DNA from: a virus
IMG/VR virus record: IMGVR_UViG_3300047446_000185
Location: 1-44,592 of that record
Length of the DNA: 44,592 nt
Direction: 5' to 3' (one strand)
Below, one piece after another: positions 31,669 to 33,185 of this stretch; the stretch's first letter is position 1, and the number at the start of each line of letters is the position of its first letter. The position numbers and the translations under genes were made by a program. The notes below the pieces were generated by a model. That model had not been told where the DNA came from, made no database searches, and saw nothing but the letters and a program-made list of their open reading frames with translations.

Positions 31669-32085
31669 TCACCTCTTCTCGACGATCCACAGCCGGGCCG
31701 GGGCGTTGGGGTTCGGCTTGTCGCCGTCGACGTCGCGCTGGGCTTCGAGGATCGACAGGCGGGCACGGCAGACGATCCGGGACGCGACGAACGCCGGGCC
31801 GGTCTCCTCGTGGCTCAGCGAGTCCTCACTGAGGTGGCCGCAGCCGCACGGGCACAGCCACGAGCGGTACATGGCGAGGGCCAGCAACTCGGCGCGGTCC
31901 TGCTCGGTCCAGGACGGCTCCCGGGTCGTCACCGACCGCATCAGCCGGCCGGCGTCGTCGTGCTCGTATTCGGTGGTCTCGGCCGGTTCCCGGCCGTCCA
32001 GCCGCGACGGCGGGACGCCGAGGCGCTCGGCGGTCTCTATTCGCCGCTTGAATTCCGCTTCACCAGCGATGCGGCGCGCGAGAAA
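31669..32085 (-). CDS. Tail assembly chaperone, frameshift extension (T part)
   Basis: No stop occurs in this frame from the slippery CCCTTTC (32088-32082 on the minus strand) to the TGA at 31669-31671, giving a ~137-residue extension (LARRIAGEAEFKRRIETAERLGVPPSRL...LARLWIVEKR-type end) joined to residue 171 of the upstream protein. It contains LCPCGCGHLSEDSL, a cysteine cluster. Phages of this type make G and GT from one gene by -1 frameshift; GT helps load tail tube protein on the tape measure. The only in-frame ATG (31941) is well inside, so independent initiation is less likely. Confidence 0.8.
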   Translation of the reverse strand, partial: FLARRIAGEAEFKRRIETAERLGVPPSRLDGREPAETTEYEHDDAGRLMRSVTTREPSWTEQDRAELLALAMYRSWLCPCGCGHLSEDSLSHEETGPAFVASRIVCRARLSILEAQRDVDGDKPNPNAPARLWIVEKR

Positions 32086-32594
32086 GGGACGTCCACCTCG
32101 CCGCGGTTGACGAACCAGGCCGCGTCGGCGAGGTTGCCCTGCTGCCGGTCGGTGAGCTTGGCGTCCAGCTCGTCCCAGTCGACCTCTTCCGGTGGCGGGT
32201 CGATGAGGCAGGCCCGTACCAGCGCGGTCAGCATCGTCTCGTAGTTGGCCATCATGTAGCGGTCCTGCTCTACGACCGAGCCGTCCTCGTCGCGCCGCGG
32301 CGGGTGGGCGGCGACCATCGCCCGGAAGTCCGGCTTCGGGATGGCGCGGAACCGGAAGTCGTAGGTGTGTTCCCGCATCTCGGCCTCGAGGGCTTCGATG
32401 CGCTCGACGATCTCGCCGACGCCGTTGCCGGCGAGGCTGTCGGCGGGCTTCTTCTGCGCCACCTCGAGGTCGCGTTCGGCGGCTTCGTGGTCGGCGACCA
32501 GGTCGCCGCGCAGGCAGATCGGGACGCTATTCTCGGGCAGTTTCGCCTCGGCCAGCATGGCCTTGAAGTTCTTCAGGGTGCTCTTGCCGCTCAC
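32037..32594 (-). CDS. Tail assembly chaperone (G part)
   Basis: A 185-residue protein. MSGKSTLKNFKAMLAEAKLPENSVPICLRGDLVADHEAAERDLEVAQ, a coiled segment (~55-75) and EVDWDELDAKLTDRQQGNLADAAWFVNRGEVDVPF. It lies between tail tube and tape measure, the standard position. Start at GTG 32594 with AGGAG 5 nt upstream; that ribosome site is buried in a 12-bp hairpin. Its last 14 codons follow the frameshift site, where a fraction of ribosomes would shift to the extension. Confidence 0.85.
   Translation of the reverse strand: MSGKSTLKNFKAMLAEAKLPENSVPICLRGDLVADHEAAERDLEVAQKKPADSLAGNGVGEIVERIEALEAEMREHTYDFRFRAIPKPDFRAMVAAHPPRRDEDGSVVEQDRYMMANYETMLTALVRACLIDPPPEEVDWDELDAKLTDRQQGNLADAAWFVNRGEVDVPFSRAASLVKRNSSGE
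32082..32088 (-). promoter_or_regulatory. Slippery heptamer for -1 frameshift
   Basis: C CCT TTC in the zero frame fits X XXY YYZ exactly; after the slip the tRNAs re-pair on CCC and TTT. It sits 14 codons before the end of the chaperone frame, and the -1 frame is open onwards for 138 codons. Conserved frameshifting at this position is established for many dsDNA phage tail genes. Confidence 0.8.
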
Positions 32595-32599
32595 GTACT

Positions 32600-32651
32600 C
32601 TCCTGGCGGGTTGGCGCAGGGCCGGACACCCGCCAGGAGGCCCGGCCCTGC
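32600..32651 (-). promoter_or_regulatory. Interleaved hairpins covering the chaperone ribosome site
   Basis: Read 5' to 3' on the minus strand: GCAGGGCCGG (32651-32642), CTCCTGGCGGGT (32639-32628), CCGGCCCTGC (32625-32616) and ACCCGCCAGGAG (32611-32600). Arms 1+3 pair perfectly (10 bp) and arms 2+4 pair perfectly (12 bp), so the two hairpins exclude each other or form a pseudoknot. Arm 4 contains AGGAG, the chaperone ribosome site, 5 nt before its GTG. Confidence 0.75.
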
Positions 32652-32705: not shown

Positions 32706-33185
32706 TTACGCGACTGCGGCGCGCATCGCGGGCGACGAGGTGATTTTGATCGGGATCTCGTACCGTTCGACCGTGTTCGGCTCCGGGTCCATCCGGGCGA
32801 TCTCGCCGCACAGCGCCGGATACACCTCGATGGCCTGGGCTGAGGCCCACGCGGTCGTCGAGGCGATCGAGCGGCGCACCACCACATAGCCGGCCGTGTC
32901 GCGGATCAGCGTCGTGAAGATGGTGTCCGTGCCGGACTGCTTCTTCAGCCGCAGCAGCGTGCCGGAGAAGCTGGTACGGCCGTTGACCGTGGTGTTGAAC
33001 GTCGAGTCCAGCGCGGAGGTGTCGACGTCGGCGGTGTCCGGCCGGAAGCCGGCCAGGCCGTCCGCGGTCTGCGTCGACTGCAGCGCGATGCCCGCGTTCA
33101 GTTCCGTGGTGGTCGGCGCGTTGATGTTCGCGATGGTCGTGACCCAGTAGACCCGGGTCTTGCCGTCGCTGGTGATGTCAGGCAC
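32706..33185 (-). CDS. Major tail (tube) protein
   Basis: A 159-residue protein. VYWVTTIANINAPTTTELNAGIALQS, then TSFSGTLLRLKKQSGTDTIFTTLIRDTAGYVVVRRS and EVYPALCGEIARMDPEPNTVERYEIPIKI, a pattern typical of actinophage tail tube proteins. It is followed by a strong terminator and then chaperones, as expected for the most abundant tail protein. GTG start at 33185. Confidence 0.88.
   Translation of the reverse strand: MPDITSDGKTRVYWVTTIANINAPTTTELNAGIALQSTQTADGLAGFRPDTADVDTSALDSTFNTTVNGRTSFSGTLLRLKKQSGTDTIFTTLIRDTAGYVVVRRSIASTTAWASAQAIEVYPALCGEIARMDPEPNTVERYEIPIKITSSPAMRAAVA

Follow-up and report, generated by a model that had tools for sequence, protein, structure and literature searches.

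A candidate H-type RNA pseudoknot with alternative 3' partners between the tail tube gene and the next gene in phages of Actinobacteria

Introduction

In the S15 (rpsO) and S4 (alpha operon) operators, a pseudoknot at the ribosome-binding region controls translation initiation, and in the preQ1-I and SAM-II riboswitches, which are of the H type, the loop-tail helix contains or abuts the Shine-Dalgarno sequence. The pseudoknots of programmed frameshifting, by comparison, lie inside coding sequence and after a slippery site. In phage T4, a pseudoknot upstream of the ribosome site of gene 32, together with repeats extending into that site, serves translational control; a 2010 paper noted that perhaps no other viral pseudoknot was yet known to autoregulate translation, and it also mentions the rpsO pseudoknot (PMC3014915). 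The SAS/ESAS elements of cluster K mycobacteriophages occur at many non-structural genes and have a 13-bp box that is conserved, together with repeats of 17 bp (PMC3203893).

The locus described here lies in IMG/VR virus record IMGVR_UViG_3300047446_000185, of which positions 1 to 44,592 (44,592 nt) were analysed as a whole and are referred to as the window. Similar to the S15 and S4 operators, the element at this locus combines a predicted pseudoknot with a ribosome-binding region; however, those operators have a protein ligand, belong to cellular genes and offer their loop a single partner with no tandem alternatives. The frameshift pseudoknots share with it the H-type fold and a place in the phage tail gene region, but the present element stands before a start codon and not within coding sequence. 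The likeness to gene 32 of T4, T2 and RB69 is a coaxial H-type pseudoknot in phage mRNA, upstream of the ribosome site and with repeats running into it; there, however, gp32 binds repeats of the form UUAA(A), and the pseudoknot is some 67 nt upstream (PMC3014915). The repeats of the present element are GC-rich rather than unstructured and A+U-rich, complement the element's own loop and reach the start codon, and no protein partner is known. The SAS/ESAS likewise place an inverted repeat with a spacer just upstream of phage translation starts (PMC3203893), whereas the present element occupies one tail junction, has no sequence conserved across families and has loop-tail pairing. Identity with the SAS/ESAS was rejected, as the conserved 13-bp GGGATAGGAGCCC box is absent from the window element sequence.

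Results

Two interleaved helices precede the chaperone gene in the window

A preliminary description of this DNA had placed four interleaved arms at 32600-32651 on the minus strand, in the order B5'-A5'-B3'-A3' and with 10 (B) and 12 (A) perfect pairs, and a base-by-base check returned exactly this arrangement. Also confirmed were its claims that A3' holds the AGGAG of the chaperone gene, the element thus sitting on the ribosome site of the next gene, and that the element follows a terminator. The features, all on the minus strand, are as follows.

32706..33185 (-): major tail (tail tube) protein gene, upstream of the element (PF25595, E 4.7e-46; phrog_2491, major tail protein)
32679-32655 (-): intrinsic terminator, GGCTCCCGGACTCGGGGGC then TTTTTT (a GC-rich hairpin followed by a T run)
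32653-32640 (-): 5' arm of the extended S1 (B), GTGCAGGGCCGGGC (window scan and S1 covariation)
32651-32642 (-): B5' core, GCAGGGCCGG (base-by-base check)
32639-32628 (-): A5' loop arm, CTCCTGGCGGGT (base-by-base check, loop-tail coevolution)
32627-32614 (-): 3' arm of the extended S1 (B), GTCCGGCCCTGCGC (window scan, base-by-base check)
32625-32616 (-): B3' core, CCGGCCCTGC (base-by-base check)
32611-32600 (-): A3', a single copy that holds the Shine-Dalgarno AGGAG, ACCCGCCAGGAG (base-by-base check)
32037..32594 (-): tail assembly chaperone gene, the presumed target (phrog_20192, E 5e-4, weak; tblastn)

The minus-strand order is therefore tail tube gene (stop codon TAA at 32708-32706), terminator, element and chaperone gene, the last starting with GTG at 32594-32592, five bases past A3'. 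When B is extended to S1, by pairing GTGCAGGGCCGGGC with GTCCGGCCCTGCGC, one mismatch is included. The chaperone assignment is based on the weak PHROG match and on a resemblance, by tblastn, to tail assembly chaperones annotated in Arthrobacter phages. A second reading frame (31672-32110, minus strand) overlaps the chaperone frame at its end and extends to about 31670, an arrangement expected of a frameshifted chaperone pair; no classic slippery heptamer was seen in this overlapping frame.

Both strands of the window were scanned for stems of at least 10 pairs with a 7-20 nt loop that pairs over at least 6 bp just downstream. The element ranked first with a score of 69.0 (next independent site, 57.5), and none of 120 dinucleotide-shuffled windows reached 69, the best shuffled score being 63. 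The element in the window is not a product of chance. Plain minimum-energy RNA folding, a check proposed in the preliminary description, bore out B and did not show A: B (S1) alone appeared, with an unremarkable z of -1.6, and pseudoknots are invisible to this method. Rfam gave no match on the element in the window region (two weak chance matches fell elsewhere in the region) or in 13 relatives, a nucleotide search of phage records with the window junction gave no match, and no paper describing the element was found in the literature, all in keeping with the earlier statement that no described switch of this form is known at this locus.

The architecture recurs downstream of tail tube genes

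A scan with the chaperone protein yielded 14 loci that have, 3' of the tail tube gene, a T run, CGTGC and interleaved arms; the fourteenth, L012, lies on the contig of L029, in which the element was read. A scan with the tail tube protein yielded 69 loci, and their junctions show the common layout in unrelated letters, far beyond the TTTTTTCGTGC group. For example, L025 reads GCAGGGGCGGACC-ac-CTGGCCC-GGTCCGCCCCTGC followed by GGGCCAGG twice, L067 has the loop CGCCAGCCC with GGGCTGGCG and GGGCTGG and ends at ATG, and L055 has the loop CCCCTCGACGTG with CACGTCGAGGGG and ACGTCGAGG. A matching element was present in all ten IMG/VR relatives found with the tail protein of Footloose, and none was found in the Montesquieu scan. 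Altogether, 123 loci (85 distinct) have an element of common architecture downstream of the tail tube gene, and their loops comprise 48 different sequences; these loci are not independent, as many are close relatives, and the 48 loop cores represent perhaps 15-20 families by eye. The element also occurs in two Actinoplanes genomes (L145, L149), where it sits in what look like prophages.

Among named phages, the Arthrobacter phages Eileen, Isolde, Anekin, Persistence and Tiff81 have the loop TTGTGGGA with copies TCCCACAA, a G-U or perfect middle copy, and CCCACA-GGAG, and the Arthrobacter phages Seahorse and Hestia have the loop GTTGTGGGAC with three GTCCCAC copies, the third between the Shine-Dalgarno sequence and ATG. 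Microbacterium phage Footloose has three GGTGAG, and Brevibacterium phage AGM1 has three CAGGAGA, an element that was read directly and is absent from the strict scan listing. Faja, TripleJ and Glutamicibacter phage Montesquieu carry the element as well. By the strict scan, the junction is the sole place in Eileen and in Footloose with two or more loop complements, and the background across 1.4 Mb of scanned strands was four unrelated two-copy sites.

The tail protein of Mycobacterium phage D29 has matches in 1,190 records, of which ten phages were read; the spread of D29-type elements over the remainder is an extrapolation. The element was found in the Mycobacterium phages D29, PackMan, Panamaxus, Poompha, Switzer and Benedict and in KatherineG (Gordonia), Nancinator (Rhodococcus), and GreenWeasel and Pavo (Streptomyces). 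In D29-type elements the hairpin has 10-14 bp and the loop arm is, for example, TTGGCGGGC or TGCGGACC; one or two perfect copies are followed by a last copy at the start site, which often includes one or two G-U pairs. At the junction of D29 genes 23 and 24 (L178, 2580-2600), CTTGACAGCCACC stands directly 3' of the tail tube stop, which we take to be the reverse complement of the cluster A stoperator, presumably GGTGGMTGTCAAG; CTTGACA recurs at the equivalent spot in the other Mycobacterium, Gordonia and Rhodococcus phages that were read. Judged from these comparisons, the element appears to have been retained in phages of eight or more genera of Actinobacteria.

Several candidates were set aside. 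Matches to the motif TTTTTCGTGC(S)(S)GGCCG outside the tail tube context are mostly without the element, so the motif itself is not the element; two motif matches do carry it (L087, L093), with a tail protein too distant for the tblastn used. Two automatic matches (L059, L060) were dropped because their stems lie inside coding sequence. Related phages whose chaperone start overlaps the tail tube stop (L077-L080, L147, L148) are without the element, which can be read as consistent with translational coupling as an alternative, and in phiC31 there is no intergenic space 3' of the major tail gene. Bifidobacterium phage Bbif-1 (L158, 1725-1820) has a strong S1 hairpin at the junction for which no loop partner is convincing, and may represent a degenerate form of the element or a different one. 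Three loci (L018, L019, L022) have about 130-230 nt of extra DNA between the tail tube stop and the terminator, and the gap after the tail tube stop in L048 (2486-2600) contains a tRNA-like stretch, GGGAATTGAACCCC, in which ARAGORN called no tRNA.

Loop and tail change together on the sense strand

Across the 123 loci (85 distinct), S1 spans 12-17 positions and the loop-tail helix (S2) 6-12 bp. The sites had been selected for complementarity, and therefore cross-matching and shuffles, not raw pair counts, are the test of S2. The 48 loop cores complement their own tails over a mean of 8.1 bp versus 3.5 bp for other tails; pairing of at least 6 bp was found for 98% of own combinations, 13% of crossed combinations and 10% of shuffled ones, and none of 20,000 permutations fitted loops to tails as well. 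All four Watson-Crick pairs occur at each of seven S2 positions, in first and last copies alike. These pairs were counted by a script in the pairing register, since a MAFFT alignment (A2) aligned the copies by sequence and not by register and was rejected. In the largest subgroup (31 distinct S1 sequences), 100% of cells were paired and 17 had changed on both sides, versus 4.6 after shuffling and 0-3 with slid partners. The preliminary description had named compensatory changes in relatives as a test, and their presence favours the structure. Covariation across dozens of phages indicates that both helices are real and selected.

A phage or host protein (a tail protein, the chaperone or a ribosomal protein) could bind the pseudoknot and its repeats for autogenous control in the manner of T4 gp32, and tandem repeats would suit cooperative binding; the layout of T4 gene 32, a 5' pseudoknot with repeats that run into the ribosome site, is alike (PMC3014915). 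However, across the 48 loop cores not one nucleotide of loop or repeats is constant from family to family, and the repeats change with the loop instead of keeping to any fixed motif, so that recognition by a protein would have to be of shape only; we consider a protein operator unlikely. The same comparison separates the element from the preQ1-I and SAM-II riboswitches, which also have a loop-tail helix at or near the Shine-Dalgarno sequence but have a conserved ligand pocket; the 48 loop cores share no motif that could correspond to ligand-binding nucleotides, and the element has no Rfam match.

Complementarity alone is strand-blind, and a palindrome followed by direct repeats resembles an iteron array, as might be bound as DNA at an origin, a packaging site or a recombination site. 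Under symmetric scoring, however, G-U outnumbered A-C combinations on the sense strand by 60 to 13 in S1 and by 50 to 17 in S2, which points to sense-strand RNA and not DNA. DNA iterons were rejected on this excess, and the fixed placement before a start codon also speaks against a DNA-level element, which we regard as extremely improbable. Comparison among the phages shows the two helices, their conservation, their position and their existence as sense-strand RNA.

The family favours a pseudoknot over exclusive hairpins

In the window and across the family, the two helices are interleaved and the loop of one can pair downstream of it, as in an H-type pseudoknot. The loop arm is flush with the 3' arm of S1 in 75 of 85 distinct elements, and the helices lie 0-1 nt apart in 81 of 85, an arrangement that permits coaxial stacking; in the window the spacing is 2 nt with the 10-bp B and 0 with the extended S1. 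By a loose criterion, nine of the 85 elements have one A3' copy, 55 have two, and 21 have three or four (13, 50 and 15 when only copies before the called start are counted). Single-copy members have longer helices (9.2 versus 8.0 bp). In 74 elements in which copies were compared, the first was stronger in 34, both were equal in 25, and the last was stronger in 15.

The preliminary description preferred a kinetic switch in which B and A are mutually exclusive hairpins, B forming first and keeping the ribosome site free, and A hiding the site once B is disrupted. At 17 loci, however, S1 has a hairpin energy of -26 to -34 kcal/mol, while the A helix alone, with S1 open, has about -8 to -26 (in relatives often no more than -8 to -20), and in most relatives A alone cannot rival S1 (at L028, -10 versus -34 kcal/mol). 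An exclusive switch also has no role for the flush loop arm or the tandem A3' copies. Taken together, the strength of S1, the flush arm and the tandem copies point to an H-type pseudoknot with competing 3' partners as the design of the family, and not to two rival hairpins, and a switch of this kind is quite unlikely as the general explanation.

In the window itself, by contrast, the exclusive reading may hold, since B and A are nearly balanced (-29.4 versus -25.9 kcal/mol) and a crossing loop of 2-6 nt speaks against a full pseudoknot. A small number of relatives resemble the window in having a single long A3' (L101, 10 bp; L017, 9 bp). The crossing loops of last copies are mostly at least 10 nt across the family, and those of first copies are 0-19 nt. 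In the GTGCCCGG subgroup and the window, the first-copy crossing loop is 2-5 nt beside an S1 of 12-14 bp, which is too short unless outer S1 pairs open, and the geometry is likewise strained for the first copy in the GTGC subgroup. The earlier remark that a pseudoknot is an option but a strained one is apt for the window; for the family the pseudoknot is favoured.

The last copy lies at the start of the next gene

With starts called by a simple rule (an open frame plus a purine-rich box), the last A3' copy reaches at most 3 nt into the called start and stops no more than 19 nt short of it (median, 8) in 78 of 78 elements, so that, as with gene 32, the pseudoknot lies upstream at the ribosome site of the gene that it would regulate. 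The last copy contains the Shine-Dalgarno sequence in the window and L101, precedes it in the GTTCGGG-TAGGAG group, and follows it in Seahorse and the D29 group. Compared across the phages, the constant feature is that the ribosome landing site is covered, and not that the Shine-Dalgarno sequence itself is paired.

The gene that follows is not always the chaperone gene. The link to the chaperone claimed earlier fits the window, where that gene is next, but in several relatives another small gene follows the element: at six loci (L007, L008, L009, L010, L013, L014) the chaperone gene is set apart from the element by extra coding sequence. There the element stays with the tail tube gene and its last copy lies at the start of the inserted gene, so the spot between element and chaperone gene looks like an insertion point. 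In Arthrobacter phage TripleJ (L166, MN234178, about 2007-2130), gp14 has its annotated start (locus 2071) within the element and a second loop complement, AACCTTGGAGG, stands 7 nt before a later ATG, which suggests that gp14 probably starts at this later ATG.

An effect on RNA stability or transcription, through protection of the mRNA end, processing, or polymerase pausing or termination, with changes in translation being secondary, would agree with the terminator before S1 in the window and the TTTTTTCGTGC subgroup. It would also agree with the large demand for tail tube relative to downstream products. However, terminators are missing from many other relatives, including whole families without one at the junction, and the last copy stays within 20 nt of the start codon in 78 of 78 elements, whatever gene follows; a primary role in stability or transcription is very unlikely.

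Discussion

These data lead us to propose, with a probability of roughly 0.6, that the element is a cis-acting H-type RNA pseudoknot with alternative 3' partners that limits translation of the gene after the tail tube gene. A pseudoknot of the H type at a translation start is of a known kind; what appears new, and was not found described, is the tandem array of alternative partners for one loop.

The element would lie in a late polycistronic mRNA, at the junction of the tail tube gene and the next gene, usually that of the chaperone. The late genes of D29 are transcribed from the left end as far as the gene 32.1-33 region (PMC5712189), which places the junction within one transcript, and the element would therefore act inside one mRNA. 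S1 (B) would fold first, stay folded, and offer an arm of 6-12 nt at the 3' side of its loop; with S1 always formed in most members, A could form only on top of it, as a pseudoknot. Pairing of the loop arm with a downstream A3' would give a coaxially stacked H-type pseudoknot, and pairing with the start-proximal copy would cover the ribosome landing site, block 30S binding and lower translation of the next gene. The upstream copies, one or two in most phages, would compete for the loop, and pairing there would leave the ribosome site free. From this layout we infer repression, competition between the copies, and stoichiometry as the purpose: chaperone output would be tuned, and kept low relative to tail tube, by the balance among the pairings. 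In the window, where one long A3' copy (12 bp) includes AGGAG, partial opening of S1 or true exclusion of one helix by the other may apply.

The upstream copies are usually as strong as the last or stronger, as would suit a device that turns output down without shutting it off; by the same token, the last copy is often not the stronger one and may not win often enough to repress. The pseudoknot could activate instead of repress, and any reason given for keeping two or three copies is a guess. A more specific version, which we offer tentatively, is a ligand-free two-state switch in which one loop chooses between a decoy copy (site open) and the start-site copy (site closed), the strength of pairing fixing the ratio of tail tube to chaperone; such a switch would have persisted in phages of eight or more genera of Actinobacteria, its loop and copies exchanging their bases in concert. 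Because the tandem copies coevolve, compensatory mutation offers a direct test of the mechanism.

If the proposed role holds, a pseudoknot at this junction would be a solution widely shared among actinobacterial phages, one of them being the M. smegmatis phage D29, which is in standard laboratory use. It would bear on the question of how siphophages maintain far more tail tube than chaperone when both come from a single late transcript. The element may also aid annotation, as it would mark the true start of the gene after the tail tube gene.
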